Positions 5,748-29,879 of a stretch of 64,000 bases of DNA are shown here, piece after piece; the first letter of the stretch is position 1, and each line of letters opens with the position of its first letter. Made by a program: the position numbers and the translations under genes. Origin of the DNA: Bosea vaviloviae (GTDB taxonomy: Bacteria > Pseudomonadota > Alphaproteobacteria > Rhizobiales > Beijerinckiaceae). Location: NCBI RefSeq assembly GCF_001741865.1, contig NZ_CP017147.1, positions 806,001 to 870,000 of the forward strand, in the 5' to 3' direction. The notes beneath the pieces are model-generated. The model made no database searches. It saw nothing but the letters and a program-made list of their open reading frames with translations, and was not told the origin of the DNA.

Positions 5748-5773
5748 CGATCAGCCGATGACTGCGCCTCGCT

Positions 5774-8432: not shown

Positions 8433-8449
8433 CGGCGGGTTTGACGACC

Positions 8450-9761: not shown

Positions 9762-9768
9762 GCGCGAT

Positions 9769-9862: not shown

Positions 9863-9870
9863 TCCGATGC

Positions 9871-12282: not shown

Positions 12283-12331
12283 AGCAGGCTCTCGCGAGGA
12301 TGGAGGGCGCAACCCTTCGGGATCAAAGCGC

Positions 12332-12480
12332 GGGGAACCCCTCTCCTGTAAGGAGAGGGGCAGGGGTGAGGTGTAGGCCCGAAATCATCGAGCCTGAACG
12401 CCGACGGCGGCGACGTTTCGCGCCGCTGGTCGAACGGCCTACCCCTCACCCTGCCCTCTCCCTACGGGAGAGGGTTCCCC
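12332..12480. repeat. Large imperfect palindrome between aceE-like and lrp-like genes
   Basis: The left arm GGGGAACCCCTCTCC...GAGGTGTAGGCC is mirrored by GGCCTACCCCTCACC...GAGGGTTCCCC at the right. Each arm also folds on itself around CTCTCC/GGAGAG. It sits in the intergenic space between divergent genes and resembles pieces at 41078-41110 and 42655-42695. Confidence 0.75.
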
Positions 12481-12624
12481 GCGCCCTTCATCGAACGTGT
12501 CGCGTGTGACAAAAAGCTGGACTGCGATCATGCATGGTTTCCGCAGCGTTGGCAGCTAAAGACAGGAGCCGCGACTTCCCCAATTGGTGGTTTCCGCTAA
12601 TCCTGGGCCTGAAAGCAAGAGACC

Positions 12625-13110
12625 ATGCCAGATCATAAACTCGACGACATCGACCGCCGCATCGTCCAGGCTCTCCAGGCCGATGGGCGCATGAGCATTC
12701 AGGATCTCGCGGGCAAGGTCGGGCTCTCGCCAAGCCCTTGCGCGCGCCGCGTCCGGCTGCTGGAGGAGGCCGGCGTGATCAAGGGCTATGTCGCGGTCGT
12801 CGACCAGGACAAGCTCGGCCTGCCGGTCTCGGTCTTCGCCTCGATCAAGCTCGAGCGCCAGCGCGAGGAGGAGCTCGACCGCTTCGCCGCCATCGTCGCC
12901 CGTTGGCCGGAGGTCGCCGATTGCTATCTGATGACCGGGCCGCGCGATTACCTGCTGCGCATCATCGTCAGCGACCTTGCCGCCTATGAGCGCTTCCTCA
13001 AGGACAAGCTGACCCGGCTCGACAATGTCGCCTCGATCGAGTCGAGCTTCGCGCTCGGACAGGTGAAGCGTTCCTTCTCGGTCCCGGTGGAATTGGGCAA
13101 GGGCGTCTGA
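12625..13110 (+). CDS. Lrp/AsnC-family transcriptional regulator
   Basis: A 161-residue regulator, standard length. It opens with the Lrp pattern LDDIDRRIVQALQADGRMSI and a winged HTH (LAGKVGLSPSPCARRVRLLE, about residues 27-46). A C-terminal RAM/ligand domain follows (VADCYLMTGPRDYLLRIIV). It is divergent from the AceE-like gene, so it probably senses an amino acid or oxoacid and controls that enzyme. The 342-bp intergenic region contains the large palindrome. Start is good: ATG after AAGCAAGAG. Confidence 0.93.
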   Translation: MPDHKLDDIDRRIVQALQADGRMSIQDLAGKVGLSPSPCARRVRLLEEAGVIKGYVAVVDQDKLGLPVSVFASIKLERQREEELDRFAAIVARWPEVADCYLMTGPRDYLLRIIVSDLAAYERFLKDKLTRLDNVASIESSFALGQVKRSFSVPVELGKGV

Positions 13111-13290
13111 GGCAGGGCCGCCCGAGGCAGGGACGCCTGACGACAGAGCGGCCATCGGCAATGAAGTGATGCAGAGACGGCATATCGGCGCAATTATATG
13201 ACGACAGACATGCGTCTGGCGCATTGATTGCGAATCGCCTTTCCGCTATGGCCGCCAGCTTCGCAAGCTCGATCATCGAAAGCAGCCCCT

Positions 13291-16411: not shown

Positions 16412-17194
16412 ATGCTGAAGGGCAAGACCGCCGTCGTCACCGGCTCGACCTCCGGAATCGGCCTCGCCATCGCCCGCGCCTATGCGGCTGAGGGCGCCAA
16501 CATCGTCATCAACGGTTTCGGCGCGCCAGACGCCATCGAGAAAGAGCGCGCCGGCATCGAGGCCGATTTCGGCGTCACCGCGCGCTATTCCCCCGCCGAC
16601 ATGGCTCATGGCGGCGCCATCGCCGCGATGATCACTGATGCCGAAAGCGAATTCGGCTCGGTCGACATCCTGGTCAACAATGCCGGTATCCAGTTCGTCT
16701 CGCCGATCGAGGAGTTTCCCGTCGAGAAATGGGACGCGATCATCGCGATCAACCTCTCGGCCGCCTTCCACGCCATCCGCGCCGCGCTTCCGGGCATGAA
16801 GGCGCGCAAATGGGGCCGCATCATCAACACGGCCTCGGCCCATGCGCTCGTCGCCTCGCCGTTCAAATCAGCCTATGTCGCCGCCAAGCACGGCATCGCC
16901 GGCCTGACCAAGACGGTCGCGCTCGAGGCCGCGACCTTCGGCGTCACGGCGAACGCGATCTGCCCGGGCTATGTCTGGACGCCGCTGGTCGAGAAGCAGA
17001 TACCGGAGACCATGGCGGCGCGCGGTCTCACCAAGGAGCAGGTCATCAACGACGTCCTGCTGCACGCCCAGCCGACCAAGCAATTCGTCACCAGCGAGGA
17101 GGTTGCGGCGCTTGCCGTCTTCCTCGCCTCGGACGCCGCGAAATCGATCACCGGCGTCATCCTCCCGATCGATGGCGGCTGGACCGCTGAATAG
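16412..17194 (+). CDS. bdhA: 3-hydroxybutyrate dehydrogenase
   Basis: A 260-residue short-chain dehydrogenase that interconverts D-3-hydroxybutyrate and acetoacetate with NAD(H). It has TGSTSGIGLAIA for the nucleotide, NNAG, and the catalytic S-Y-K in SAHALVASPFKSAYVAAKHG. The C-terminal half (CPGYVWTPLVEKQIPETMAA, LLHAQPTKQFVT) is characteristic of PHB-linked 3-hydroxybutyrate dehydrogenases. A GGAGGGAG ribosome site precedes the ATG. It is followed 133 bp downstream by acetoacetate decarboxylase. The two would take 3-hydroxybutyrate to acetone, or route acetoacetate onward. Confidence 0.95.
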   Translation: MLKGKTAVVTGSTSGIGLAIARAYAAEGANIVINGFGAPDAIEKERAGIEADFGVTARYSPADMAHGGAIAAMITDAESEFGSVDILVNNAGIQFVSPIEEFPVEKWDAIIAINLSAAFHAIRAALPGMKARKWGRIINTASAHALVASPFKSAYVAAKHGIAGLTKTVALEAATFGVTANAICPGYVWTPLVEKQIPETMAARGLTKEQVINDVLLHAQPTKQFVTSEEVAALAVFLASDAAKSITGVILPIDGGWTAE

Positions 17195-17197
17195 GCC

Positions 17198-17248
17198 AGA
17201 GCATTGCGCGAAAAAACGGATACCGGTTTTTCGCGTGAGCAATGCTCT
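17198..17248. repeat. Dispersed palindromic repeat, family A (copy 3)
   Basis: Perfect arms AGAGCATTGC (17198-17207) and GCAATGCTCT (17239-17248) enclose ACCGGTTTTTCGC. A second hairpin follows at about 17276-17301 (GCATTCGGACG...CGTCCGAATGC). Both lie between bdhA and adc and may affect the transcript. Confidence 0.85.
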
Positions 17249-17327
17249 CAACTCTAGGAATCGATCACGTTTTTCGCATTCGGACGGAAGCGTCCGAATG
17301 CGACCTGATCTAAGGGATCTACGCGCC

Positions 17328-18074
17328 ATGAATCGCAAGGACATCCTCGATCTGCCCTCGATGCCCCTGGCCGGGCCGAGCTATCCGGCCGGGCCCTATC
17401 GCTTCGTCGATCGCGAATACATGGTCATCAGCTACGAGACCGACCCCGAGGCGATCCGCCATCAATTGCCCGAGCCCTTGATGCCGCTGGCGACGCCGAT
17501 CGTCAGCTATGAATGGATCAAGATGCCCGATTCCTCCGGTTTCGGCAGCTACACCGAGAGCGGCATCGTCATTCCCTGCAAGTTCGGCGAGGAGGAGGTC
17601 TCCTTCGTCTCGCAGATGTATCTCGACGACGAACCGCCGATCGCGGCCGGCCGCGAGATCTGGGGCTTTCCCAAGAAATACGCCCATCCCAAGCTGGAGG
17701 TGGTCAAGGACACGCTCACCGGCACGCTCGAATATGCCGGCCAGCAGGTCGCCATGGGCACGATGGGCTACAAGCATGAGAGCCTGGCCGGCAATGGCGT
17801 CAGGACCACGGCGATGCTGACCAAGACGCAGGTCAACCTCAAGATCATCCCCGGCGTCGACGGCGAGCCCGAAATCTGCCAGCTCGTGGCGCTGAACCTC
17901 ACCGACATCACGGTGAAGGGCTCCTGGATCGGCCCCGGCCGTCTCCATCTGATCCCGCATGTCAACGCGCCGGTCGCCGACCTGCCGGTGCGAAAGGTGA
18001 TCGGCGCGCACCACTTCATCGCCGACCTCACCTTGCCCTTCGGCCGGAAGATCCATGACTACATGAAGGCATGA
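17328..18074 (+). CDS. adc: Acetoacetate decarboxylase
   Basis: A 248-residue enzyme that decarboxylates acetoacetate to acetone via a Schiff base. The catalytic lysine pair lies in GREIWGFPKKYAHP, the signature of the family, and length fits. The start is fixed by MNRKDILDLPSMPLAGPSY; upstream open frame overlaps the repeat and is rejected. Context after bdhA suggests disposal or use of acetoacetate from PHB breakdown. Some family members act on other keto acids, but the active-site motif here is the canonical one. Confidence 0.93.
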   Translation: MNRKDILDLPSMPLAGPSYPAGPYRFVDREYMVISYETDPEAIRHQLPEPLMPLATPIVSYEWIKMPDSSGFGSYTESGIVIPCKFGEEEVSFVSQMYLDDEPPIAAGREIWGFPKKYAHPKLEVVKDTLTGTLEYAGQQVAMGTMGYKHESLAGNGVRTTAMLTKTQVNLKIIPGVDGEPEICQLVALNLTDITVKGSWIGPGRLHLIPHVNAPVADLPVRKVIGAHHFIADLTLPFGRKIHDYMKA

Positions 18075-18165
18075 CGACATGAAGGGTTGAGGCGGACACA
18101 TCAAAGCCCGCATTCCCCGGCATGAGCGACATCCGACACGGTCGGAAACACGGGCGAGGCTGGGG

Positions 18166-19239
18166 ATGATGATATCCGGGACTGGTTTGTGTTCGGGCCT
18201 GAAACTGCTCGCGCTCGCTGCCGCCTTGTCTGCCTGCAAGCATGGCGACATCGTCATGAATGCCAGCGAGCCCGCCGTCGCTGCCGGAATCTATGCCTCG
18301 GCCATGGCTCCGGCCGTCAAGGAGCGGCCCCGCATCAGGGCCGCCGAGCAGAACATCCTCATCCTTACCAGCGGCGGCGCGGATGGCGCTTTCGGAGCCG
18401 GCGTCCTCACCGCCTGGTCGACCAGCGCCAAGCGACCGGTCTTCGACATCGTCGCCGGCGTCTCGACAGGAGCGCTGCAGGCGACGCCGGCCTTTCTCGG
18501 TTCGGATTGGGATGGTTTGCTGGAACGCGTCTACACCACGACGCGGACGCGCGACGTGTTTCGTTCGAACGGCCTGAAGACGCTGGTCGGCAGCGGCTAT
18601 TATGATCCGGCACCGCTGCACCGGCTGCTGACCGAACTCGTCACCGAAGAGATGCTCGACGCCGTAGCCGCCGCCCACAGGCAGGGCCGCAGGCTCTATG
18701 TCGCGACAACCGATATGACGGCGGGAAAATCGGTGCTCTGGGACATGGGCGCGATCGCGGCCTCGGGCGATGGCCGCAAGAACAGCTATATCGACGTTCT
18801 GATCGCCTCCGCTGCCGTTCCCGGCCTCGTCGAACCGGTGCGCGTGGTCGACCGGCAGCGCGGCACGCGCTCGCTGCATGGCGATGGCGGCGTCAAGGCG
18901 CCGGTTCCGCTCGAGCCCTTCATGCTCGACCCGCGTAAGGCCGTGCGGACGAATGTCTGGGTCGTCGCCAACGGCCATGTCAGCCGCGATGCCGCCTCCA
19001 ACAGCGAAGCGCGCACGACGCTGGCGCTGGCGCGCCGAGGCGTGTCGCAACTCCTGCGCCAATTGCTCTACAGCTCCGTCCGTGAAGCCGAAACCAGGAC
19101 ATTGCGGGCCGGCGCGCATTTCCGGCTGATCGCCCTGCCGGACAGCACCCCCGAAGCCGCCGACCCCTTCGTCTTCAATCCCGACGAAATGCGGGGCCTG
19201 TATGACAAGGGGCGCGAGCTCGGCTCGCAGATCTCGTAA
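18166..19239 (+). CDS. Patatin-like phospholipase, predicted lipoprotein
   Basis: A 357-residue protein. A lipoprotein signal ends in the lipobox LSAC (C24), so it is probably membrane-anchored outside the cytoplasm. It carries the patatin oxyanion loop SGGADGAFGAG (about 69-79), the nucleophile S100 in AGVSTGA, and the catalytic aspartate in HGDGGV. It is the second patatin within 4 kb but is not close in sequence to the first, which is soluble. Substrate unknown; phospholipase or other acyl hydrolase. Two adjacent ATGs (18166, 18169) are possible starts. Confidence 0.88.
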   Translation: MMISGTGLCSGLKLLALAAALSACKHGDIVMNASEPAVAAGIYASAMAPAVKERPRIRAAEQNILILTSGGADGAFGAGVLTAWSTSAKRPVFDIVAGVSTGALQATPAFLGSDWDGLLERVYTTTRTRDVFRSNGLKTLVGSGYYDPAPLHRLLTELVTEEMLDAVAAAHRQGRRLYVATTDMTAGKSVLWDMGAIAASGDGRKNSYIDVLIASAAVPGLVEPVRVVDRQRGTRSLHGDGGVKAPVPLEPFMLDPRKAVRTNVWVVANGHVSRDAASNSEARTTLALARRGVSQLLRQLLYSSVREAETRTLRAGAHFRLIALPDSTPEAADPFVFNPDEMRGLYDKGRELGSQIS

Positions 19240-19286
19240 ACCAGAGTGCTCTGGTCATGAGATTCGGGACAAGCCCGAGAATGACG
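19235..19286. repeat. Dispersed palindromic repeat, family B (copy 3)
   Basis: A short copy, ATCTCGTAAACCAG...GGTCATGAGATTCGGG, ending AGAATGACG. It overlaps the last codons of the patatin lipoprotein gene, so the repeat may have set that gene's C-terminus. Confidence 0.65.
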
Positions 19287-19294
19287 TGCAACCT

Positions 19295-20062
19295 TCACCC
19301 GCCCGGCAGGAACGCGACCCGCCCGTCCGCGCCCCGCACGGTCTCGATCGCGACGCCGTAGAGTTCTGCCAGCCGCTCCGGCGTCAGCATCGCGGCGGCT
19401 TTGCCCGTCGCGATCGCCTGCCCCTCGCGCAGCAGCATGACCCGGTCGGCATGGGCAAGCGCCTGGTTGGGATCATGGGTGGTGAAGAGCACGCCGAGTC
19501 CCTCCCTCGCGAGCTGCCTGATCTGGCTCATCACCTTGCCCTGATTGCCGAAATCGAGGCTCGCCGTCGGCTCGTCCAGGATGACATAGGCCGGCTCCTG
19601 CGCCAGCGCGCGGGCGATCAGCACGAGCTGGCGTTCGCCGCCCGAGATCTGCGTATAGGGGCGCTGCGCCAGCTTCGCGATGCCGAGCCGCTCCAGCATG
19701 GCCTGCGCGACCTCGCGGTCATGTCCGGACGGCGCGGCGAACACCCCGCCATGCGCGGTGCGCCCCATCAGCACCACCGAAAACACCGTGAAGGCGAAGG
19801 TGCCGGCATGGGCCTGGGGCACATAACCCAGCGCCCGCGCCCGCTGGTTGACCGAAAGCGCAGCCAGCGGCAGGCCGTCGAGCATCAGCGTTCCGCCTTG
19901 CGGTGGCAGCAGGCCGAGCAGGGTCTTGAGCAGCGTCGTCTTGCCGCCGCCATTGGGGCCGAGCAGCGCCAGGACCTCGCCGGCCTCCAGATCGAGTCCG
20001 ATATCGCGGCCGATCCGGCGCTCGCGATAGCCATAGGCGAGGTCGGCCGCGCTCAGGCTCAC
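19295..20062 (-). CDS. ABC transporter ATPase, FecE/BtuD type
   Basis: A 255-residue ATPase of the iron-siderophore/cobalamin/MolC class. Walker A is GPNGGGKTT, the Q-loop is in LGYVPQAHAG, the signature is ISGGERQLVLIARAL and Walker B is YVILDEPTASLD, followed by the TTHDPNQA switch. The GTG start overlaps the permease stop (GTGA), showing translational coupling. It is the last gene of the nine-gene run. BtuCD-type systems carry chelates but include MolBCA for molybdate/tungstate. The oxyanion genes upstream make that the likeliest cargo; this is inference. Confidence 0.9.
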   Translation of the reverse strand: MSLSAADLAYGYRERRIGRDIGLDLEAGEVLALLGPNGGGKTTLLKTLLGLLPPQGGTLMLDGLPLAALSVNQRARALGYVPQAHAGTFAFTVFSVVLMGRTAHGGVFAAPSGHDREVAQAMLERLGIAKLAQRPYTQISGGERQLVLIARALAQEPAYVILDEPTASLDFGNQGKVMSQIRQLAREGLGVLFTTHDPNQALAHADRVMLLREGQAIATGKAAAMLTPERLAELYGVAIETVRGADGRVAFLPGG

Positions 20063-21087
20063 GACCAGCCTCCGCGCGCCGAGGCCAGCAGCCAGATGAA
20101 GAAGGGCGTGCCGATGACGGCGGTGAGGATGCCGAGCGGCGTCTCGACCGGGGCAGCGGTGCGCGCCAACGTGTCGATGATCAGGAGATAGCCGCCGCCG
20201 AGGAGTGCCGCCGTCGGCAGGAGCTTGCCGAAATCGGGGCCGACCAGGAAGCGCGCCAGATGCGGCACGACGAGTCCGACCCAGCCGATGATGCCGGCTG
20301 CCGCCACGCTCGCCGCCGTCACCAGCGTCGCCGCCGCCACGATCGCGATGCGCAAGGGGCCGGTATTGAGCCCGAGCGCGCGCGCCTCCTCCTCCGGCAG
20401 CGACATCACATTCATCCGCCAGCGCAAGGCGACGAGCACGGCCGTGCCCAGCAGCACCGGGCCGAGCAGCGGGATGAGGTCCGGCTTGGCCGTGCCGGCG
20501 AGGCTGCCGAGCAGCCAGAAGGTCATGGCGGGCAGTTGGTTGTAAGGATCGGCCCAGTATTTCACCAGCCCGATGCCCGCCCCCAGGAGCGAGCCGACGA
20601 CGACCCCGGTCAGCACCAGAACCAGCACCGGATCGCCGCGCCGGATCGTCGAGCCGATCGCATAGACCGCGCCGACCGCCACCAGCCCGCCAATGAAGGC
20701 CGCGAGCTGGATCGCGAACAGCCCGAGCGAGAAATAGATTCCGACGACCGCCCCCAGCGCCGCGCCCGAGGACGCGCCCAGAATATCGGGCGAGACCAGC
20801 GGGTTGCGGAACAGCCCCTGGAAGGCCGTGCCCGCGACCGCCAGCGCCGCTCCGCAAAGCACGGCGGCGACCACGCGCGGCCCGCGAATATTCCAGATCA
20901 CGGCCTCGATCTGCGGCGACAGGCCCGAGGGCTGACCAATCAGCCCCGCCCAGACAAGCCGCGCCAGATCGGCGGGCCCGACGGGAAAGCGCCCGAGCCC
21001 GAAAGCGAGCAGCACCGCGACGCCGAGCAGGCCAAGCGCAAAGGCGTTTCCGCGAAGGGACGATGGCGGCACGGGATCAGCGCCCAT
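20059..21087 (-). CDS. ABC transporter permease, FecCD/BtuC family
   Basis: A 342-residue inner-membrane protein with about ten helices. It carries the FecCD landmarks: IWNIRGPRVVAAVLCGAALAV, then GTAFQGLFRNPLVSPDILGA and GLVVPHLARFLVGPDF. It pairs with the overlapping ATPase and with the binding protein that ends 24 nt upstream. The cargo is not readable from the sequence; molybdate/tungstate (MolB-like) is inferred from the operon. Iron-siderophore or cobalamin uptake is the standard alternative, but no TonB receptor is in the window. Confidence 0.9.
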   Translation of the reverse strand: MGADPVPPSSLRGNAFALGLLGVAVLLAFGLGRFPVGPADLARLVWAGLIGQPSGLSPQIEAVIWNIRGPRVVAAVLCGAALAVAGTAFQGLFRNPLVSPDILGASSGAALGAVVGIYFSLGLFAIQLAAFIGGLVAVGAVYAIGSTIRRGDPVLVLVLTGVVVGSLLGAGIGLVKYWADPYNQLPAMTFWLLGSLAGTAKPDLIPLLGPVLLGTAVLVALRWRMNVMSLPEEEARALGLNTGPLRIAIVAAATLVTAASVAAAGIIGWVGLVVPHLARFLVGPDFGKLLPTAALLGGGYLLIIDTLARTAAPVETPLGILTAVIGTPFFIWLLASARGGWS

Positions 21088-21111
21088 CCAGTCGGCGAGG
21101 AAGCACGCCCA

Positions 21112-22161
21112 TCACCTGTGTCCCGACAGGATCAGGTCGAGTTGCGCCTCGTTCGGCGTGACCTGATAGAACAGCGTGTGGAAGTCGCGCGCGATGGCGC
21201 GGATGTTCTCGGGGAACTGGGCCGGGTAGAGCAGCTTCGCCAGCCACCACAGGCCGACCATGCGGTTGACCGAGGGCGGGAAATCGACCCAGCCGAAGGG
21301 CAATTTCGGCGAGAGATGCACCCGCCCCGCCTTCACCGCCCGGATGCTCGCCCAGCCCGGATCCGTGTGCACGCTCACGGCAAAGCCGGTATCGACGGTG
21401 ACGATCACCTCCGGATCCCAAGCCATGACCTGTTCGAGCGAGACCTGCGCCAGGCCCGAACCTTGCGCCAAGCCGTTACCCGGCTGCTCGGCCGCGACAT
21501 TGCGCGCGCCCAGAAAGCTCAGCGTCTCCACATTGATCGAACCGCCCAGGCCGGTCTCAAGCCCGCGCGGCCCGCGCGCGTAATAGACCGAGGGGCGCCG
21601 TTCGGGGGGAAGCGTCGCGATGCGGCCCTTGATCACCGTCATGGCGGTCTCGCACCAGCGCGCCAGCGTCTCGGCCCGCTCCACGCGCCCGGTGAGCTGG
21701 CCGAGGATGCGATAGCTCGCAGGGATCGCCTCGAAGCGCCCGTCGAGCAGCGCATAGGGAATGCCGGTCTGGCTCTGCACGCGCTCGGCGAGTTCGACAT
21801 AGCTGCGCCCGGTCGAGCCGGCATCGACGATGAGGTCGGGCTTCAGCGTCAGCACCGCCTCCAGATTGGCGCTGTTGCCGCGCCCGGTGATGCGGCCGAT
21901 CTGCGGCTTGTTGCCGATATTCGGCAGCAGGAAGGGCAACTCCTCCGGCCCATTGGCGCGCGGCCAGCCCAGCAGCAGGTCCGGCGCCAGCGTGTAGAGC
22001 TGGATCGCGGCCGGCGGCCCGGCGGGGAAGACGCGCTCGACCTTGGCCGGTACCGCGATGTCGCGGCCGGCTCCATCGCGAATGGTCGCCGCCCAGGCCC
22101 CACGCGGAACCGCGAGCGTGGCAAGCCCGGCCAGAACCAGGCGGCGGTCAGGATGCGGCAT
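21112..22161 (-). CDS. ABC transporter substrate-binding protein, BtuF/FecB (TroA-like) fold
   Basis: A 349-residue periplasmic binding protein with a short signal (DRRLVLAGLATLAVPRGAWA). The class-III binding-protein pattern is visible: VERVFPAGPPAAIQLYTLAP, LEAVLTLKPDLIVDAG and VMAWDPEVIV. VYYARGPRGLETGLGGSIN near the middle probably lines the cleft. Its start overlaps the end of the TrmO-like gene by 14 bp, so the genes are tightly coupled. With FecCD permease and ATPase it makes a complete importer. The ligand is probably an oxyanion or metal chelate. Confidence 0.88.
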   Translation of the reverse strand: MPHPDRRLVLAGLATLAVPRGAWAATIRDGAGRDIAVPAKVERVFPAGPPAAIQLYTLAPDLLLGWPRANGPEELPFLLPNIGNKPQIGRITGRGNSANLEAVLTLKPDLIVDAGSTGRSYVELAERVQSQTGIPYALLDGRFEAIPASYRILGQLTGRVERAETLARWCETAMTVIKGRIATLPPERRPSVYYARGPRGLETGLGGSINVETLSFLGARNVAAEQPGNGLAQGSGLAQVSLEQVMAWDPEVIVTVDTGFAVSVHTDPGWASIRAVKAGRVHLSPKLPFGWVDFPPSVNRMVGLWWLAKLLYPAQFPENIRAIARDFHTLFYQVTPNEAQLDLILSGHR

Positions 22162-22627
22162 GGCGGTGCTCCTGCGCTGGCGACTGGGCGCAGCGATTCG
22201 GCTTCACATCGAGCAGGGGCGTGCCGTCGAGACAGTCGAGCCCGCGCACGATCAACGCGCCCTCCTCGACGCGCAGCAGCCGCACCCGCGACAGCGCGAT
22301 CGGATTGGGCCGCACCGGCGAGCGCAGGGCGAAGGTGCCGAGTGGCTCGGCCCCGCGCGGCGTCTGGGTCACGAGATCACGCCGCGCCTCATGCATCCAG
22401 TAGAGCAGGTCGAGATAAGCGAAGGCTGCGATCCCCATCAAGGCCGCATGCCAGGGCGCGTCGATCTCGACGCGGCATTCCGGACCGTTCTCGCTGTCGC
22501 CCTGGCGCGGACATTGGTCGCGCGTCGCGAAAGGCGTGCGGATCCGGCCGATGAAGACAAAATGCGCATCCTGCCTCTCGGGCAGGGGCGCGGATGTCTC
22601 GCCCGGTCGCGTCGCCTGCCAGTCCAT
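22148..22627 (-). CDS. TrmO/TsaA-like (UPF0066) protein
   Basis: A 159-residue beta-barrel protein of the UPF0066 family. E. coli TrmO uses SAM to N6-methylate threonylcarbamoyladenosine in tRNA. Visible motifs are FIGRIRTPF at the start, GLFALRSPxRPNPI-like GTFALRSPVRPNPIALSRV, and LDCLDGTPLLDVKP. It lacks the longer C-terminal domain of E. coli TrmO (about 235 residues). Its position, 15 nt after a ModA-like gene and overlapping a binding protein, suggests a job linked to metal or oxyanion supply rather than housekeeping tRNA modification. That role is inference. Confidence 0.85.
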   Translation of the reverse strand: MDWQATRPGETSAPLPERQDAHFVFIGRIRTPFATRDQCPRQGDSENGPECRVEIDAPWHAALMGIAAFAYLDLLYWMHEARRDLVTQTPRGAEPLGTFALRSPVRPNPIALSRVRLLRVEEGALIVRGLDCLDGTPLLDVKPNRCAQSPAQEHRHAAS

Positions 22628-22642
22628 CCGCGCTTGCTCCGT

Positions 22643-23407
22643 TCAGTTCGTGTCGCGCGGCAGGGTCGGCGCGGCGAAGCCATGCTTCGCCAGGATCTCC
22701 TGCCCGGCGCGCGAGAGGATGAACATGGCGAGCCGCCCGGCATTTGGCGAGGCCTCGGCCATCACGGTCAGGCCGTAATCGGCTCCCACCGACAACGCGG
22801 CCGGCAAGCGCACCGGCTGGAGGCCGGGCTGTTCCCGCGCGATCGCCGCGGTATTGGTGCGATAGGCCAGGAACAGATCGGCTGCGCCGGTCGCGAGCTT
22901 GTGACCGTAGACATTGACGCCGAAGGGCGCCGCGAGGCTCGCCGGCCCGCCGGTCAGTTGCAGCGCCTTGGCCTCCAGCGCCGCCTTCGCTCCGGCCTGC
23001 AGCACCTCGGCCCGAGCAAAAACCTGGAAGGCGTAGTCGCCGGACGGATCGGCCTTCGGTGTCGAAGTGCCGAGCTTGATCGCGGGATCGAGCATGCGTT
23101 CAAGCAGAGTCTCAGGAGAAACCTGAACCTCCGGCCGCGCGAACGCGCAAAGCTCGTTGCGCGCGAACAAGACGACCGGCCCCGCCAGCCCCGCTTTCGC
23201 CAGAGCTTCGGGATTGCCGAGATCGGCCGAGGCGAAGAGATCGGCCGCCTCGCCCTGGGCGATCCGCTCCTTCAGCAGGCCCGACGCGCCGCAGACGAGT
23301 TCGATCGCCTGTCCGGTCTTGGCTTCATACGCCGCCGCGACCTCGCCCAACGCCGCGCGCAGGCTGCCCGCTGCCAGGAGCCGGATCGGCGGAAGGGCCG
23401 CAGCCAT
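22643..23407 (-). CDS. ModA-like oxyanion-binding protein without signal peptide (copy 2)
   Basis: A 254-residue SBP_bac_11/ModA-type protein, similar throughout to the next gene upstream (shared VVLFARNE-C-FAR, LGTSTPKADPSGDYA, GADYGLTVM). It starts MAAALPPIRLLAAGSL, directly in the first strand of the domain, so there is no signal peptide. It lies in the same frame as the upstream copy: that copy's TGA, then two codons (CCG GCC), then this ATG. It could be made as a cytoplasmic protein, or exported only as the second half of a readthrough product. The TGA also prevents any longer in-frame start. Ligand probably molybdate or tungstate. Confidence 0.85.
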   Translation of the reverse strand: MAAALPPIRLLAAGSLRAALGEVAAAYEAKTGQAIELVCGASGLLKERIAQGEAADLFASADLGNPEALAKAGLAGPVVLFARNELCAFARPEVQVSPETLLERMLDPAIKLGTSTPKADPSGDYAFQVFARAEVLQAGAKAALEAKALQLTGGPASLAAPFGVNVYGHKLATGAADLFLAYRTNTAAIAREQPGLQPVRLPAALSVGADYGLTVMAEASPNAGRLAMFILSRAGQEILAKHGFAAPTLPRDTN

Positions 23408-23413
23408 GGCCGG

Positions 23414-24223
23414 TCAGCCCCCCTCGTGCGGCGCGATCGGAGCGGTGAAGCCGTGCTTGGCAAGGATGCGCTGCCCCTCGGGCGACAGGATGAACAGCGC
23501 CAGCCGGTAGGCATTGGTCGAGGCGCCGGTCATCACGGTCATCCCGTAATCGGCGCCCACGGCAAGCGCCGGCGGCAGCCTGACCATGCGCTGGCCCGGC
23601 TGTTCGCGCGCGATCGGCAAGGCATTGGTGCAATAGCCCAGGAAGAGATCGGCCGCCCCCGTCGCCAGCAAATGGCCCGTGCCGTTCCTGTCGGCTGGGG
23701 TCGGCGCGCTGTTGGCGCCGCCGACGAGCTGGAGCGCCTTGGTCTCCAGGGCCGCCTTGGCGCCGGGCTGCAGCGCCTCGGCCTTGGCGAAGATCTGCCA
23801 GGCATAATCACCGGACGGATCGGCCTTCGGCGTCGAGGTGCCGAGCTTGACCGCAGGGTCGAGCATGCGCGCCAGCAGCGTCTGCGTCGTCACCTCCAGC
23901 CCGGCGCGGGCAAAGGCACAGATCTCGTTGCGGGCGAAGAGCACGACGGGCCCGGCCTTGCCCTCCTGAGTCAGGGCGAGCGGGTGGCTCATATTGGCGG
24001 AAGCGAAGACCTCGGCCGCCTCGCCCTTGGACAGGTTTTCGCGCAACAGGCCGGAGGGTCCGAAGCGGGTCTTGACCGGCAGCTTGGCTGTCGCCTCAAA
24101 AGCCTGGGCGACCTCGGTCAGCGCATTGCGCAGGCTGCCGGCAGCGTGGAGCAGCACGAGTTGCTCGGCCTGCGCGACGGAGCAGGAGAGCCCGAACACG
24201 GCGGCAAGGATCAGGCGCCGCAT
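23414..24223 (-). CDS. ModA-like oxyanion-binding protein with signal peptide (copy 1)
   Basis: A 269-residue periplasmic protein with signal MRRLILAAVFGLSCSVAQA. ModA landmarks are HAAGSLRNALTEVAQAF, GEAAEVFASAN and KADPSGDYAW. It starts 4 nt after the tupA stop; a start nine codons earlier would overlap tupA and lengthen the n-region. No ModB/ModC genes adjoin it, so it may feed the TupBC or BtuCD-type translocator or act as a scavenger. Its 3' end is in frame with the second copy across a single TGA. Confidence 0.87.
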   Translation of the reverse strand: MRRLILAAVFGLSCSVAQAEQLVLLHAAGSLRNALTEVAQAFEATAKLPVKTRFGPSGLLRENLSKGEAAEVFASANMSHPLALTQEGKAGPVVLFARNEICAFARAGLEVTTQTLLARMLDPAVKLGTSTPKADPSGDYAWQIFAKAEALQPGAKAALETKALQLVGGANSAPTPADRNGTGHLLATGAADLFLGYCTNALPIAREQPGQRMVRLPPALAVGADYGMTVMTGASTNAYRLALFILSPEGQRILAKHGFTAPIAPHEGG

Positions 24224-24227
24224 CGAT

Positions 24228-25106
24228 TCAGGCGCCCGCCTGCGTCGCATTCGGGAAGAATAATTGCTGCCCGTCGATCTTGTACTCGGCGATCGCCTTC
24301 TGGCCTTCCGGGCTGATCAGCCAGTTCACGAAGGCCTGGCCGTCATTGACCTTCACATGCGGGTGCTTGGCCGGGTTCACCGCCATGACGCCGTATTGGT
24401 TGAACAGGCGCCGGTCGCCCTCGACCGCAATGGTGAGATCGCCGCGGTTCTTGAACGAGATCCAGGTGCCGCGATCCGCGAGCACATAGGCGCCCATCCC
24501 GCCGGCCGTGTTGAGCGCAGCCCCCATGCCCTGACCGACGTCGCGATACCAGGAGCCCTTCTTCTGATCGAGATCGATGCCCGCGACCTTCCAGAGCGCC
24601 AGTTCGGCGGAGTGGGTGCCGGATTTGTCGCCGCGCGAGACGAAGGGCACGCTTTTCTCCTGGATCGCCTTCAGCGCTGCGACGATGTCCTTCGTGCCGG
24701 CGACGCCGGCCGGGTCGCTTTTGGGGCCGATCAGGACGAAGTCGTTATACATCACCGGCTTGCGCTCGAGCGCGAAGCCCTCAGCCAGGAACTTCTCCTC
24801 CTGCGCCTTGGCGTGGACGAAGACGACATCGGCATCGCCGCGCCGCCCGGTGTCCAGCGCCTGGCCGGTGCCTTGCGACACCACCCGCACCTCAATGCCG
24901 GTCCTGGCCTGGAACAAGGGCAGGATATGCCCGAACAACCCGGAATCCTGCGTCGAGGTCGTCGAGGAGACGATGATGAAGCGCGCGCCCGCTGCTGCAG
25001 GGGCCGATGCCGCCGGCGGCGCGACTGTGGTCGTCTGGGCGAGCGCGAGGCCGGCAAAGGCGGCCGAGAAACCGGCAGCGAGCAAGAGGCGTCTGGTCCT
25101 GATCAT
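24228..25106 (-). CDS. tupA: Tungstate ABC transporter substrate-binding protein
   Basis: A 292-residue periplasmic protein with signal MIRTRRLLLAAGFSAAFAGL, followed by a Pro/Ala linker. It carries the TupA/WtpA-related motif SSTTSTQDSG that binds the oxyanion, then SQGTGQALDTGRRGDADVVF and VSRGDKSGTHSAE. These are typical of TupA, which binds tungstate very tightly. It lies downstream of tupB and tupC. The start at 25106 follows a duplicated AGGAGACGACC element that also makes a six-codon mini-ORF ending on this ATG. Tungstate is likely; molybdate cannot be ruled out. Confidence 0.9.
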   Translation of the reverse strand: MIRTRRLLLAAGFSAAFAGLALAQTTTVAPPAASAPAAAGARFIIVSSTTSTQDSGLFGHILPLFQARTGIEVRVVSQGTGQALDTGRRGDADVVFVHAKAQEEKFLAEGFALERKPVMYNDFVLIGPKSDPAGVAGTKDIVAALKAIQEKSVPFVSRGDKSGTHSAELALWKVAGIDLDQKKGSWYRDVGQGMGAALNTAGGMGAYVLADRGTWISFKNRGDLTIAVEGDRRLFNQYGVMAVNPAKHPHVKVNDGQAFVNWLISPEGQKAIAEYKIDGQQLFFPNATQAGA

Positions 25107-25134
25107 GGTCGTCTCCTCATCATGGTCGTCTCCT
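25103..25134 (-). promoter_or_regulatory. Duplicated ribosome-binding site and start region of tupA
   Basis: The 15-mer TCATGGTCGTCTCCT occurs at 25103-25117 and 25120-25134, giving two tandem AGGAGACGACCATGA blocks on the minus strand. The upstream ATG opens a six-codon frame (MMRRRP) whose TGA overlaps the tupA ATG. Confidence 0.8.
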
Positions 25135-25175
25135 GGAGTTTCTGGTTTTGGGAGCAATCGGTTTCTCCGAGCGTC

Positions 25176-25907
25176 TCACCAGATCAAATCCCCGGCGAGG
25201 AAAGCGCGGGCCGCGATCGTCTGCGGCTCCACGAAGAAGTACTCGGCGAGGGAATCCTCGATCAGCCGGCCCCGGTGCAGGAACAGCACGCGATCGGCCA
25301 GTCGCTTCGCCTGGCCGAGATCATGCGTCGACATCAAGACCGTGATGCCCTCCGCCACGAGACCGGTCAGCAACTCCTCGATCTGCCGCGTCGCGGCAGG
25401 GTCGAGCTGCGAGGTAGGCTCGTCCAGGAAGAGCAGTTCGGGCCTCAAGCTCCAGGCGCGAGCGATGGCCAGGCGCTGCTGCTCGCCGCCCGAGAGCAGC
25501 CGCGCCGGCTGCGTCGCGCGCTCGAGCAGGCCGAAGCGCTGCAGCGCGGCCCAGGCGCGTTCGCGCCGCTCCAGGCGCGCGACGCCCGCCGACGCCAGCG
25601 CATGATCGATATTGGCCTCGACCGAGCGGCGCAGCATGATCGGCTTCTGGAACACCATGGCGTGGCGTTTCGCGCGCCCGGTCGCGCCGGCTGCCCAGTG
25701 CACGCGGCCCTCGCTCGGCGTCAGCAGGCCGTGGCAGAGCCTGAGCATCAGCGATTTGCCGGCGCCATTGGGCCCGAGCAGCACGGTGACTCCGCCCGCA
25801 GGCACGACGAGGCTGACTGCATCGACCAATTTGCGCCCCTCCCCGAGGAAGGAGACGGTCTCGAGGCTGAGCGGCAGGATCGAGGTCACGTCACGCATCA
25901 TGTTCAT
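25176..25907 (-). CDS. tupC: Tungstate ABC transporter ATPase
   Basis: A 243-residue ATPase. Walker A is GPNGAGKSLML, the Q-loop is in HAMVFQKPIMLRRS, the signature is LLSGGEQQRLAIARAW, Walker B is LLFLDEPTSQLD and the switch is MSTHDLGQ. The FQKPIMLRRSVxxN stretch is typical of TupC/phosphate-type ATPases. Its ATG overlaps the tupB stop (ATGA), so the two are coupled. A 69-bp gap to tupA follows. The pairing with TupB and TupA makes the assignment solid. Confidence 0.92.
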   Translation of the reverse strand: MNMMRDVTSILPLSLETVSFLGEGRKLVDAVSLVVPAGGVTVLLGPNGAGKSLMLRLCHGLLTPSEGRVHWAAGATGRAKRHAMVFQKPIMLRRSVEANIDHALASAGVARLERRERAWAALQRFGLLERATQPARLLSGGEQQRLAIARAWSLRPELLFLDEPTSQLDPAATRQIEELLTGLVAEGITVLMSTHDLGQAKRLADRVLFLHRGRLIEDSLAEYFFVEPQTIAARAFLAGDLIW

Positions 25908-26668
25908 CCGGCATAGCGGGCGCCGATGCGGCTCGCCCCGAAGGCGACCGCGTTGATCGCCAGCGTCAGCGCGATCAGCACGAGCCCGAGCCCGAGCGCC
26001 AGGGCTAAGTCGCCCTTGGAGGTCTCCAACGTGATCGTCGTCGTCATGGTGCGGGTGTAGCCGGCGATGTTGCCGCCAACGATCAGCACCGCGCCGACCT
26101 CGGCACTCGCCCGGCCGAAGCCGGCGAGCAGCGCGGTAGCCAACGCAAAGCGCCCATCGAAGAGCAGGGTCGGGATCGCGCGCATCCCCTCGAGCCCGAC
26201 CGAGCGCAGATGGTCGCGATACTCGCTCCAGAGATCCTCGACCGTCTGGCGTGTCAGCGCGATCACGATCGGCAGGACCAGGATCACCTGCGCCGCGATC
26301 ATCGCGGTCGGCGTGAACAGCAGCCCGAGCGGGCCGAGCGGGCCCGAGCGCGAGAGCATCAGGAAGACGAAAAGCCCGGCCACGACCGGCGGCAGGCCCA
26401 TCAGTGCGTTGAGGCAGACGATGACGACCGAGCGGCCGGGAAAGCGCGCCAGCGCCAGGGCCGCTCCGAGCGGCAGGCCGATCAGCCCCGCGATCAGCAC
26501 GGCGGTCAGCGTCACCCTGAGCGACAGGCCCACAATCGCCAGGAAACCGGGATCGAGCCCGACCACCAGCGCGAAGGCCGCCTTGAAGATCGCCGCGAAG
26601 TCCACCGTCCGTCGCGCTCCCCCGAAAGCCAGACCTGTCCGAAAGCCCAGACCTGCCCGAAAGCTCAA
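25904..26668 (-). CDS. tupB: Tungstate ABC transporter permease
   Basis: A 254-residue permease with five or six helices and the classic cytoplasmic-loop motif in EYRDHLRSVGLEGMRAIPTL...FGRASAEVGAVLIVGGNIAG. TMTTTITLETSKGDLALALG is a TupB hallmark. It is the first gene of the nine-gene run. The first 20 residues are encoded by an imperfect tandem DNA repeat, so the start may lie slightly further in; the helices begin near residue 24. It is divergent from the HTH/PBP_like regulator. Confidence 0.92.
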   Translation of the reverse strand: MSFRAGLGFRTGLAFGGARRTVDFAAIFKAAFALVVGLDPGFLAIVGLSLRVTLTAVLIAGLIGLPLGAALALARFPGRSVVIVCLNALMGLPPVVAGLFVFLMLSRSGPLGPLGLLFTPTAMIAAQVILVLPIVIALTRQTVEDLWSEYRDHLRSVGLEGMRAIPTLLFDGRFALATALLAGFGRASAEVGAVLIVGGNIAGYTRTMTTTITLETSKGDLALALGLGLVLIALTLAINAVAFGASRIGARYAG

Positions 26669-26690
26669 GCCTGCGAACAGCCAAAGCCTG
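26618..26690. repeat. Imperfect tandem repeat at the tupB 5' end
   Basis: Three to four degenerate units of about 17-18 bp follow the pattern CCGAAAGCCCAGACCTGC. They span the tupB start and its upstream region. On the minus strand they encode FRAGLGFRTGLAF. Confidence 0.7.
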
Positions 26691-26764
26691 CAGACACTTG
26701 TGATTTCTAGAGTTCAATGCGACCAATTGCCAATCTTGGAACAAGAACAGCCTGGCGCAACCAG

Positions 26765-27655
26765 ATGCAGGACCGGATTTATCTGACCACCGAGGAGGCC
26801 GCCGCCTATCTGCGGCTCAAGGAGCGCAAGCTCTACGAGCTCGTCGCGCATAGTGCCGTGCCCTGCACCAAAGTCAGCGGCAAATGGCTGTTCCCGCGTG
26901 CAGCGCTCGACCGCTGGCTCGAGGCCGGGCTGGCGCGGCCCGAGGGCATGCAGCCCACAAACCCGCCGCCGATCATCGGCGGCAGCCAGGATTCGCTGCT
27001 AGAGGTCGCCGTGCGTGATTCCGGCTGCGGTCTGGCGCTGTTGGCGGAAGGCTCGCAGGCCGGGCTCGACCGGCTGACGCGCGGCGAGGTCGCCATCGCC
27101 GCGATCCATCTCCATGCGACGCCCGATAATGACGCGGCCAACCCGGCCGCGATCCGGGCGGAGCCCGGCCTGTTCGACGCGGTGGTGATCGGTTTCGCCC
27201 GGCGCGAGCAGGGCTTGCTGATGGCGCCCGGCAATCCGCTCGCCCTTGCCGGCATCGCCTCGGCTGTCGAAAGGCGTGCCCGCTTCGCCCGTCGCCAGCA
27301 GGGCGCCGGCGCGCAATTGCTGCTGACGAGCCTGATGGCGCGCGACGGCATCACTGACGGCCGCATGGTCATGGCCGAGGGCATCTGCGCCACGGGCCAG
27401 GATCTGGCCCTGGCGATCCGCACCGGCCGCGCCGATTGCGGCATCGCCTCGCGCGCCATCGCTGCCGCCTTCGGCCTCGATTTCCTGCCGCTGGTCTGGG
27501 AGCATGTCGATCTGGTGATGCGCCGCCGGACCTATTTCGAACCGGCGACGCAAACCCTGCTCGCCTGGATGCGCAGGCCCGACATGGCGGCAAGGGCGCG
27601 CGAACTCGGCGGCTATGATCTGGCGCAGAGCGGCGAGGTCAGGCTGAATCGCTGA
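26765..27655 (+). CDS. HTH (excisionase-type) + PBP_like transcriptional regulator
   Basis: A 296-residue one-component regulator. Residues 5-50 form an HTH_17 domain (IYLTTEEAAAYLRLKERKLY, then SGKWLFPRAALDRWL). Residues about 80-280 match the cytoplasmic PBP_like domain, with TRGEVAIAAIHLHATPD and the signature ARRQQGAGAQLLL. That domain is found with MoeA and in molybdate/tungstate-linked regulators. The protein is divergent from tupB, so it likely senses the oxyanion or its cofactor and controls the nine-gene run. The ATG at 26717 would add 16 residues. Confidence 0.88.
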   Translation: MQDRIYLTTEEAAAYLRLKERKLYELVAHSAVPCTKVSGKWLFPRAALDRWLEAGLARPEGMQPTNPPPIIGGSQDSLLEVAVRDSGCGLALLAEGSQAGLDRLTRGEVAIAAIHLHATPDNDAANPAAIRAEPGLFDAVVIGFARREQGLLMAPGNPLALAGIASAVERRARFARRQQGAGAQLLLTSLMARDGITDGRMVMAEGICATGQDLALAIRTGRADCGIASRAIAAAFGLDFLPLVWEHVDLVMRRRTYFEPATQTLLAWMRRPDMAARARELGGYDLAQSGEVRLNR

Positions 27656-27689
27656 GCAAGGGCGTGCGGCAGCCAGCGGGACTTTCGGT

Positions 27690-27836
27690 GCATGCGCCAC
27701 TTCCCTTCCCCCCTCGCGGGGGAAGGTGGATCGGCGAAGCCGAGACGGATGAGGGGGCGCTGTGAGCTTTCCGCCTCAGCGCAACACGACGCCAACCGGA
27801 AAAGGCACGGCGCCCCCTCATCCGCCCCTCCGGGGC
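27690..27836. repeat. Palindromic intergenic repeat, family E (copy 1)
   Basis: CCTCGCGGGGGAAGGTGG and GATGAGGGGGCGCTGTGAGC are mirrored by CGGCGCCCCCTCATCCGC. It is related to 42712-42896 and 58776-58906. Open frames here are repeat-derived and not taken as genes. Confidence 0.7.
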
Positions 27837-27923
27837 ACCTTCTCCCGCATCAAAGTCGGCTGTTGCCCACTTTGACACTTTGGGTTGCCCATCTTGGGCA
27901 AGCCCGAGATGGGTGGGAGAAGG
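27837..27923. repeat. Double-hairpin repeat, family C (copy 1)
   Basis: Outer arms ACCTTCTCCC and GGGAGAAGG enclose hairpin 1 (AAAGTCGGC...GCCCACTTT, one mismatch) and hairpin 2 (CATCTTGGGC AA GCCCGAGATG). Confidence 0.85.
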
Positions 27924-27937
27924 GAGCTGGCCCGTTT

Positions 27938-28726
27938 TCACGCAGGACCACCAAAATTCCGCCAGGCGCCGACCCGGTGCACCGCCTCCCGGTCGCGCCC
28001 GATCTCCCCGAATGGCGAGACCGGCCAGTCCCAGCTCTCATCCGGCTTGGGGAGTGCGACGCCGCGCATCAGATCGAGCCGCTCGATTACCGTCCCGGCC
28101 CTGTCCCGCTCGACCATCTCGACATCGCTGAGCAGGACGACGCGCCCCTGAAAGCGCGCGAGATCGTCGAGATGCCAGGCGATGCAGCGCGCCGGCAAAT
28201 CGACCGGAAAGGCGGCAGTCCGCTCCGGATTCTCCTCCAGCCAGTCCTCCACCGGCCAGGCGAGCTGCGAGAGAAGATTGGCCGAGATCACGAGATCGAT
28301 GCCCACATCCGCAAGCAGATCGGCGAGCGGGTCGATCCGTCCCTCGCTCTGCCCGGCGAGCCAGCCCATCACACCGCTGAGATCGCGCGTCAGGAGCGTG
28401 ACCTTGCGGCGAAAGGCCATGCGCAGCCTGACCGACGGCAGATGCACGGCGTCGACCAGCAGCACGCGCTGGAAGCCTTCGCAAAGCAGGTCGAGCGGCA
28501 CATCCCGCACCAGCCCCGAGCCGAGCACGACGACGCAGCGCCGGGATGGCAGCGCCGCGACCACATCCGCCACCACGGCGCGGCAGCGCCCGTGATGCGC
28601 GGCCCAGGCCTTGCGGTGGCGAAAGCCGCGCGCCCACAGCGCCGTGCTCTCCGACACCAGCCCCAGCCGCCGCGTCATCCGCCCGGCCGGTGTGATCAGC
28701 CTGAGCGCGAGTTCGGCGAGCATCAC
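27938..28726 (-). CDS. Rossmann-type protein, possibly SAM-dependent methyltransferase
   Basis: A 262-residue protein I recognise only in part. The central VVVLGSGLVRDVPLDLL followed by RVLLVDAVH is the G-x-G and acidic-residue pattern of a class I methyltransferase fold. VGIDLVISANLLSQL would be the motif-IV strand. No membrane segments. It begins 16 nt after the stop of the D-threonine aldolase-like gene, so they are probably co-transcribed. Substrate unknown. The 3' end abuts the double-hairpin repeat. Confidence 0.75.
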   Translation of the reverse strand: MMLAELALRLITPAGRMTRRLGLVSESTALWARGFRHRKAWAAHHGRCRAVVADVVAALPSRRCVVVLGSGLVRDVPLDLLCEGFQRVLLVDAVHLPSVRLRMAFRRKVTLLTRDLSGVMGWLAGQSEGRIDPLADLLADVGIDLVISANLLSQLAWPVEDWLEENPERTAAFPVDLPARCIAWHLDDLARFQGRVVLLSDVEMVERDRAGTVIERLDLMRGVALPKPDESWDWPVSPFGEIGRDREAVHRVGAWRNFGGPA

Positions 28727-28742
28727 ATGCTCCGCGATGGGT

Positions 28743-29879
28743 TCAGGTCAGCGCGCCGCGCGCCGCCACCGGCCAGAGCGCCTCGACATGGGCGTCCGGC
28801 CCGTGCATCCCGCGCACGCAGACATACCAGTCGTGCAGGTTCACCGTCGGGTCGCAATGACCCGGCACGAGCAGGACATGCTCGCCACGATGCGGCAGCG
28901 CGATCGGGTCGCCGGTCAGCACGCCATGCTCGTCGGAGGGTTTCGTGTAGACGGCGCCCTCGCGCCGGAACGGCATCGGCATGCCGGAATCGATCGCCGC
29001 CGCCTTGTGCCCGGCATCGACGACGGCGCGGTCGGGCACCGGCTTGCTCATCACCCCGGTCAGGATGAAGAGCGCATGCTCGAAGGCGCGGAACGGCGTG
29101 CCGTCCGCCTGCCGGTTGCGGGCGTAATCGGCGTCCATGAAGATGTAGGAGCCGGCCTGGATCTCGTTCCAGATGCCCGAGGCGGTCTCGATCTCATAGG
29201 TGCCGGTGCCGGCCCCGCTGACGACGCCGCAGCTCAGGCCGGCCTGGGCCAGGCGTTCGACCGTGTTGCGGGCCGAGAGGCCGGCGCGCTCGATCGCCTC
29301 GCGCCGCTCGTCGATCGAGCGCATATGCTGGGCCGTGCCGTGATAGGCCTGCAGGCCGCCGAAGCGCAAAGTATTGCTGCGCGAGACCGCCTCGGCGATC
29401 CTGACCGCCGCCTCGCCGGGCGCAACGCCGCAACGCCGCCCGCCGACATCGATCTCGACCAGGACATCGAACACGACATCATGGCGCGCGGCGGCTTCCG
29501 CCGCCTCGCGCACGCCGTCGAGATGGTCGACACAGAGGCTGATCTTGGCGCTGCGGGCGAGCTGCGCCAGCCGGTCGAGCTTGGCGGCACCCGCGACCTC
29601 GTTGGAAACCAGCACGTCCTGCACGCCGCCCGCGACCAGGATCTCGGCCTCCGAGACCTTCTGGCAGCATTGCCCGACGGCGCCATGGGCGATCTGGCGC
29701 AGGGCGATCTCGGGGCTCTTATGCGTCTTGGCGTGCGGCCTCAAGCGGATGCCATGGGCCTGCGTATAGGCCGCCATGGCGACGAGGTTGCGTTCGAAGG
29801 CATCGAGGTCGAGCACCAGGGCAGGCGTGTCGATCTCGCTGAATCTCTGGCCGGCTTGGGCCGGCGGATGCAAGGGCAT
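28743..29879 (-). CDS. D-threonine aldolase / DSD1-family PLP enzyme
   Basis: A 378-residue fold-type III PLP enzyme. The N-terminal alanine-racemase-like barrel has LRPHAKTHKSPEIA with the PLP lysine. The C-terminal metal site is GHCDPTVNLHD. Histidine and aspartate two apart (H-C-D) is the D-threonine aldolase pattern; D-serine dehydratases usually have cysteine at the second position. It would cleave D-threonine to glycine and acetaldehyde, or act on a related 3-hydroxy amino acid. AGGAG precedes the chosen ATG. An open frame that continues far upstream on this strand is only the shadow of the exporter gene. Confidence 0.86.
   Translation of the reverse strand: MPLHPPAQAGQRFSEIDTPALVLDLDAFERNLVAMAAYTQAHGIRLRPHAKTHKSPEIALRQIAHGAVGQCCQKVSEAEILVAGGVQDVLVSNEVAGAAKLDRLAQLARSAKISLCVDHLDGVREAAEAAARHDVVFDVLVEIDVGGRRCGVAPGEAAVRIAEAVSRSNTLRFGGLQAYHGTAQHMRSIDERREAIERAGLSARNTVERLAQAGLSCGVVSGAGTGTYEIETASGIWNEIQAGSYIFMDADYARNRQADGTPFRAFEHALFILTGVMSKPVPDRAVVDAGHKAAAIDSGMPMPFRREGAVYTKPSDEHGVLTGDPIALPHRGEHVLLVPGHCDPTVNLHDWYVCVRGMHGPDAHVEALWPVAARGALT

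Follow-up and report, generated by a model that had tools for sequence, protein, structure and literature searches.

Gene content of the cluster and its divergent regulator

We examined a 64,000-nucleotide stretch of the Bosea vaviloviae genome (contig NZ_CP017147.1, positions 806,001 to 870,000; hereafter the window), which holds a candidate gene cluster for molybdenum and tungsten (Mo/W) uptake. Nine minus-strand open reading frames (ORFs) run from 26605 down to 19295 in the order TupB-TupC-TupA, ModA-like 1, ModA-like 2, TrmO-like and BtuF-FecCD-FecE. The ORF calls, Pfam and NCBIfam confirmed what the first-pass annotation had described, namely nine genes on one strand with short gaps or overlaps, facing a regulator with helix-turn-helix (HTH) and PBP_like domains, and two starts were corrected. 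Comparison with relatives placed the TupB start probably at GTG 26605, preceded by GGGGGAG, instead of the listed TTG 26668, and the regulator start probably at ATG 26765; the first listed starts of TupA and ModA-like 1 were 25157 and 24250. From TupB to FecE the spacings were -4, 69, 4, 6, 15, -14, 24 and -4 bp (with TupA taken from ATG 25106), the largest intergenic gap being 69 bp.

The first three genes resemble the TupABC tungstate importer in that the tupB and tupC homologues share one gene block with tupA, and in the linkage of Tup to Mo/W genes. The TupB-like permease of this type-I importer (25904..26605, minus strand) exceeded the NCBIfam ABC_perm1 cut-off and scored 156 bits against tung_perm_TupB (cut-off 320), the TupC-like ATPase (25176..25907, minus) was assigned by Pfam ABC_tran and its position, and the TupA-like, putative tungstate-binding protein (24228..25106, minus) scored 238 bits against tung_bind_TupA (cut-off 400), with a tungstate-binding protein as its best PDB match (3lr1, E 2e-75). 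The Bosea cluster differs from TupABC in these scores below the TupA and TupB cut-offs, and in its additional ModA-type binding proteins and type-II importer. Neither moeA nor mobB is among the nine genes, in contrast to the Methylobacterium extorquens tup cluster, given as moeA1-mobB-tupBCA in the available part of its description (PMC13197769). One related locus (L172, 3972-4538) contained a second, partial TupA-like ORF between TupA and TrmO.

The regulator (26765..27655, plus strand) combines the Pfam domains HTH_17 and PBP_like, the latter matching NCBIfam PRK14498 below its cut-off. PBP_like is also found fused to MoeA (L038) and, in the Microvirga counterpart of the regulator, to a ModE-type HTH; the Bosea protein shares this domain with both fusions and differs from ModE and MoeA-PBP_like proteins by its HTH_17, with no TOBE domain found by Pfam. 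The MoeA-PBP_like fusion of L038 (4224-6152) adjoins a TrmO-like gene and another FecCD/FecE block, the latter with 35-40% identity to that of the window.

The divergent regulatory region (26606..26764) was aligned with its counterparts from Bosea (13 intergenic regions, of which 10 were distinct). A block ending in TTGCA-type repeats was strongly conserved across Bosea (clearest form ATTGGCATTTGGTCGCATTGAACTCTA ... TTGCAAATGCTTGCAA) and was present with changes in the window. The proposal that the nine genes share regulation is supported to the extent of this common upstream region and its conserved block. A sigma-70 scan (0 promoters) and a terminator scan (6 terminator-like sites, compared with an expectation of 3.3 +/- 1.7) were not informative. 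Riboswitch or B12 control was rejected, as Rfam gave no riboswitch at window 17000-29000; in seven relatives it gave one tRNA and one cobalamin riboswitch, the latter in L123, at the opposite end from the TrmO-like gene and more than 7 kb from it. An 18-bp tandem repeat (2 copies, 94%) was observed in the TupB leader (26629-26664); it occurs in diverged form in L052 and is absent from the other aligned Bosea regions.

The type-II importer and its neighbours

The last three genes encode a type-II importer whose database name is 'iron ABC transporter'. The FecCD/MolB-like permease (20059..21087, minus; Pfam FecCD) had HI1471 (MolB) as its best PDB match at 225 bits, followed by the next at 181 bits, the nearest characterised system being Haemophilus influenzae MolB. 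The BtuF/MolA-like binding protein (21112..22161, minus) has the Peripla_BP_2 fold, as do YiuA, heme proteins and BtuF. By profile it was nearer MolA (E 5e-32) than BtuF (E 4e-14), and it did not belong to the NCBIfam BtuF family (32 bits, cut-off 234). For the FecE-like ATPase (19295..20062, minus; Pfam ABC_tran) the best NCBIfam models were heme/F420-0/corrinoid-type ATPases, all below their cut-offs. The block resembles H. influenzae MolBC-A (HI1470-1472) as a type-II system with a permease nearest MolB that would operate beside a type-I molybdenum importer. It differs in its binding protein, 23% identical to MolA over 296 residues in a structure alignment and with other conserved residues (R196, D293 and N299-R300 of the BtuF-like family are not at the aligned places in MolA), in its clustering with Tup and ModA, and, in some lineages, in the addition of a TonB receptor and a TrmO-like partner.

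The first-pass annotation had proposed, as a check, a search for conserved co-occurrence of the nine genes in Hyphomicrobiales; in relatives the Tup and BtuF-FecCD-FecE blocks were found together repeatedly. Three genomes of the same genus (L032, L033, L034) have the regulator facing TupB-TupC-TupA, one or two ModA genes, TrmO, BtuF, FecCD and FecE, and a fourth (L035) is without the BtuF-FecCD-FecE block; the TrmO-like gene was observed in five of seven same-genus genomes (the window's own counted) and in none of the other two. Microvirga massiliensis (L072) carries the full set with one ModA, also facing a regulator, and several further alphaproteobacterial genomes join TupBCA-ModA to BtuF-FecCD-FecE. 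Within an order sample of 297 Hyphomicrobiales genomes, the BtuF-like protein (E <= 1e-60) was observed in 36 (35 besides the window's own) and TupA (E <= 1e-40) in 143. Both were present in 29 of the 35, and in 8 of these 29 they lay within 3 kb of each other (both counts read by eye), far more often than chance would give.

The wider class sample of 289 genomes had the BtuF-like protein (E <= 1e-30) in 15, the window's own counted, and 13 of the 14 other loci were examined (all except G220). TupA adjoined the BtuF-like gene in five (G306, G349, G282, G275, G183); the G306 operon also contains a MOT1-family molybdate transporter (PF16983), and in G275 a MOSC-domain gene comes after the regulator. 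A sixth (G426) has ModA and ModE. In G412 the importer is accompanied by a TonB receptor and TrmO, and in G430, whose BtuF-like protein is only distantly related (~30% identity), by TonB, XdhC and YqeC. No recognised Mo/W partner was found beside the BtuF-like gene in G331, G222, G431, G008 and G274, the last of these on a short contig. Overall the importer's partners included ModABC, ModE, MOT1, MOSC and PBP_like regulators, with a Mo/W gene near 6 of 11 class loci.

We compared the importer with other FecCD loci in the order sample by counting strictly Mo/W-type genes (Tup, ModA/B, ModE, PBP_like regulator, MoeA-PBP, MOT1) within 6 kb. Such a gene was observed at 19 of 31 BtuF-FecCD-FecE (BtuFCD) loci and at 1 of 20 control loci, the single positive control being a weak ModB-like match (54 bits); TrmO lay near 9 of the 31 and none of the 20 (Fisher p 7e-5 and 0.008, respectively, kinship ignored). 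The 31 loci were drawn from 35 by omitting G702, G589, G562 and G671, all of genus g282, of which five members were examined, two with TrmO only and three with nothing. The controls were hand-picked, one other FecCD locus per genome in 20 of 22 genomes (G598 and G539 omitted). ORF calling relied on a crude composition score and missed short genes; the Mo/W counts were made by tblastn instead. By gene neighbourhood, the BtuF-FecCD-FecE block is a subfamily that repeatedly adjoins Mo/W genes, and because of the difference from the control loci this importer, 'iron' by name, most likely transports Mo/W.

On a tree built from 61 BtuF-like proteins, well-supported branches required at least 10 changes of the Tup label, which implies numerous gains or losses of the link. 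Some of its loci were found through TrmO and others through BtuF, so that label frequencies are not rates; L141 and L171 sit on long branches of uncertain placement, and translated matches with stops were dropped. Tup, ModA and TrmO occur without BtuFCD in L035/G011, and BtuFCD without Tup lies beside ModABC, ModE, MOT1, TrmO alone or nothing recognised. We therefore rejected a single fixed nine-gene machine, since the modules come apart even inside the genus, and the predicted system is better described as a modular Mo/W island. The first-pass suggestion of a single molybdate/tungstate system retains its Mo/W theme, the recurrence of the blocks and the shared regulatory region; one obligate system is unlikely because each part occurs without the other. 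In L175 (7841-11226), TupBCA was observed with a BtuF-like gene, and neither FecCD nor FecE was called nearby; here a type-II binding protein may serve a type-I permease.

We rejected the TonB receptor as a feature typical of the system overall, since one lay near 1 of 31 test loci and 7 of 20 control loci. The Bosea cluster contains no TonB gene; in the genome five TonB receptors were found, all outside the window. Where such receptors adjoin the importer they are alike: those of L162 and L143 scored 565-746 bits against the queries TonB, TonB2 and TonB3 (self-match omitted) and 335-355 bits against that of L141, compared with 56-95 bits for controls. All seven TonB receptors among the named loci were from Rhodobacteraceae-type genera. 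In these lineages the receptor may indicate import of chelated Mo/W. The L141 locus (4240-14439, genome G430) places the distant BtuF relative beside the TonB receptor, XdhC and YqeC, a combination reminiscent of the maturation of selenium-dependent molybdenum hydroxylases.

What the type-II importer would carry was weighed among three readings. The first, to which we give somewhat less than even weight, is that it is a MolBC-A-type importer of free molybdate or tungstate working at higher concentration, with Tup and ModA scavenging at low concentration and no chelate involved. H. influenzae offers a precedent, as the available part of PMC4031551 reports ModBC-A and a low-affinity MolBC-A in use together; the earlier statement that known uptake employs one such system at a time was therefore wrong, and the available text of a further study (PMC6147048) notes that many molybdenum users hold at least two known Mo/W transporters. 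The match to MolB, the absence of TonB from the Bosea cluster and its scarcity across the order sample also favor free oxyanion, whereas the conserved residues of the binding protein that MolA lacks at the aligned places and the TonB receptors adjoining the importer in several lineages, which a free oxyanion would not need, argue against it. The second reading is rather unlikely: the type-II block, with TonB where present, would import chelated Mo/W (a 'molybdophore'), the TrmO-like protein would methylate the ligand or another Mo/W-pathway molecule and thereby help to release or process the metal in the cytosol, and ModA-like 2 would take up the metal. Least probable is an iron-siderophore, heme or cobalamin importer that came to adjoin Mo/W genes, a reading that has the database name and the common Peripla_BP_2 fold on its side and has against it the control FecCD loci of the same genomes and the riboswitch searches, in which the only cobalamin riboswitch was the remote one in L123.

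A signal-less ModA and a short TrmO-like protein

Both ModA copies belong to the ModA family, scoring 324 bits (ModA-like 1, 23414..24223, minus) and 316 bits (ModA-like 2, 22643..23407, minus) against PRK03537.1-3 (cut-off 264), with TIGR01256 scores of 61.2 and 57.9, just below 62.5. Reading the N-termini by eye, we observed a periplasmic export signal on the first copy and none on the second, in which five codons (MAAAL) precede the start of mature ModA and an in-frame stop lies just upstream; the second copy is probably cytosolic. The same pattern was seen by eye in all five distinct two-ModA genomes (the window, L033, L034, L052, L053). Single-ModA Bosea-type loci carried a signal in 5 of 7 (L032, L035, L054, L055 and L058, none in L056 and L059; L057 and L060 omitted as near-repeats), as did all five loci read outside Bosea.

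The ModA tree separated A1 and A2 lineages, with the signal-less second copies in two A2 clades, one of which also holds the single-copy, signal-bearing L035; the signal was thus most simply lost at least twice. The ratio of nonsynonymous to synonymous substitution (dN/dS) of ModA-like 2 was 0.18-0.22 among close signal-less orthologues (0.18-0.21 for the window and its two close Bosea orthologues), compared with 0.10-0.19 for the first copy in comparable pairs (the window with L052 and L053; L033 with L034). Between the two clades the values were 0.32 and 0.23. ModA-like 2 therefore appears to be under purifying selection slightly looser than that on the first copy, which fits a working cytosolic oxyanion-binding protein. 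That it is a decaying, functionless copy is doubtful: it is an extra gene beside an intact one, lacks a signal peptide and shows the higher between-clade ratio, but the low ratios among close orthologues and the signal-less copies in two separate clades, one with a signal-bearing single-copy member, speak against decay. In its proposed cytosolic oxyanion binding it would resemble Mop/Tub-type cytosolic Mo/W storage proteins. We take it to differ from them in having the ModA fold instead of TOBE.

The short TrmO-like (UPF0066) protein (22148..22627, minus) is a probable S-adenosylmethionine (AdoMet) binder. It matched Pfam TrmO_N and, narrowly, TIGR00104 (93.9, cut-off 93.25), was 97% identical to a Bosea sp. 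OK403 protein and was the only PF01980 match in the genome; its best PDB match was 3okx (RPA0152). A structure model of low confidence (mean predicted local distance difference test score 70) was not used. Residues of the AdoMet site mapped from AF0241 were kept as R102 in 16 of 16 sequences, D131 in 16 of 16, K142 in 15 of 16 (one gap) and Q42 in 9 of 16, with all four present in the window protein. Cys39, Cys51 and Cys132 were invariant in 16 of 16, two of them within three residues of AdoMet-site positions. The protein thus shares the UPF0066 family and the R, D and K of the AdoMet site with TrmO (YaeB) and the short YaeB proteins RPA0152 and AF0241. The three cysteines are also in RPA0152 and not in AF0241 as aligned, and Mo/W gene neighbours further set the Bosea-type protein apart from TrmO/YaeB. 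The C-terminal DPRxxY motif of Escherichia coli TrmO was absent from the window protein and from all 80 named TrmO loci; its mutation abolishes E. coli TrmO activity according to the available text of PMC4132733. Because of this absence the window protein, as predicted from its sequence, is not TrmO in the strict sense.

These named loci were the best 80 of 557, ten of which were set aside as Bosea, including L059, named 'Rhizobiales bacterium'; a few were repeats (L060 = L035, L064 = L034, L057 like L032, L169 like L094). Neighbours were counted by tblastn, with the only control centred on FecCD loci. Within 5 kb a Mo/W gene was observed at 25 of the 80 loci, BtuF at 18, either at 34 and neither at 46; outside Bosea the first three counts were 15, 11 and 24 of 70. 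The commonest Mo/W neighbour was ModE-type (21 of 80), while TupA-type neighbours were seen in nine (8 Bosea and Microvirga). The repeated occurrence of such a short protein, lacking the C-terminal TrmO domain, next to ModE, Tup and the type-II importer is a new point. We consider it improbable that the protein is an ordinary tRNA m6t6A37 methyltransferase placed here by chance or for growth-rate reasons. The TrmO_N and TIGR00104 matches, the three AdoMet residues kept family-wide and the 46 loci with neither neighbour would suit such an enzyme. Against it stand the missing motif, the variable Q42 with the invariant cysteines, the recurrent neighbours outside Bosea and a patchy distribution, with any match, weak ones included, in 65 of 149 family genomes and 30 of 289 class genomes. 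A DUF2478-type gene was also observed close to TrmO or to the importer, as at L123 (9126-9749), L085 (9317-9832) and L168 (5341-5607); it occurred in 6 of the 80 named loci and was confirmed by Pfam in L123 only.

Proposed function of the cluster

We consider it likely that the cluster is a Mo/W acquisition island with the regulator, TupBCA, the two ModA proteins, the TrmO-like protein and the type-II importer as its parts. This reading draws on the gene neighbours, the recurrence on the tree, the ModE-type HTH of Microvirga, the similarity to MolB and MolA, the conserved promoter block and the selection on ModA-like 2. Under Mo/W scarcity the regulator would permit expression of the operon. 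TupBC would then import oxyanion delivered by TupA (tungstate) and by ModA-like 1 (probably molybdate), the latter acting as a second binding protein for the same permease, and alongside them the type-II importer would handle Mo/W in a different form or at different concentrations. Inside the cell, ModA-like 2 could buffer or pass on oxyanion, and the TrmO-like protein may use AdoMet to methylate a Mo/W-related substrate instead of serving as a core tRNA enzyme.

Such a function would make the importer family now named 'iron ABC transporter' a source of candidate Mo/W importers and would alter predictions of Mo/W uptake in Alphaproteobacteria; 4966 proteins matched (E <= 0.001) among 7994 scored, not all of which will belong. 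Short UPF0066/YaeB proteins without the C-terminal domain would gain a testable biological context, the target of the archaeal short proteins having been left open in the available part of the paper that identified TrmO (PMC4132733). ModA-like 2 offers a chance to test whether a ModA has been relocated to the cytosol. Should the cargo prove to be chelated, the genes would form a candidate set for Mo/W-siderophore uptake, with a dedicated transporter and a cytosolic release route for Mo/W chelates. Among the titles and abstract openings listed for open-licence literature (3 to 20 per search, out of as many as thousands of matches), none concerned a Tup and BtuFCD cluster, a TrmO-like protein linked to molybdenum, a ModA without signal peptide or a molybdenum importer linked to TonB, which is no proof of absence. 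Three points are new at the level of predicted genes: the changed assignment of the 'iron' importers as a family, the association of short TrmO-like proteins with Mo/W, and a ModA that has no signal peptide.

Elsewhere in the window, about 9 kb away from the operon, an ORF for a bisC-family molybdopterin S/N-oxide reductase was observed (36007-38052, minus); as called, it aligns from model position 80 onward, and its start is putative.

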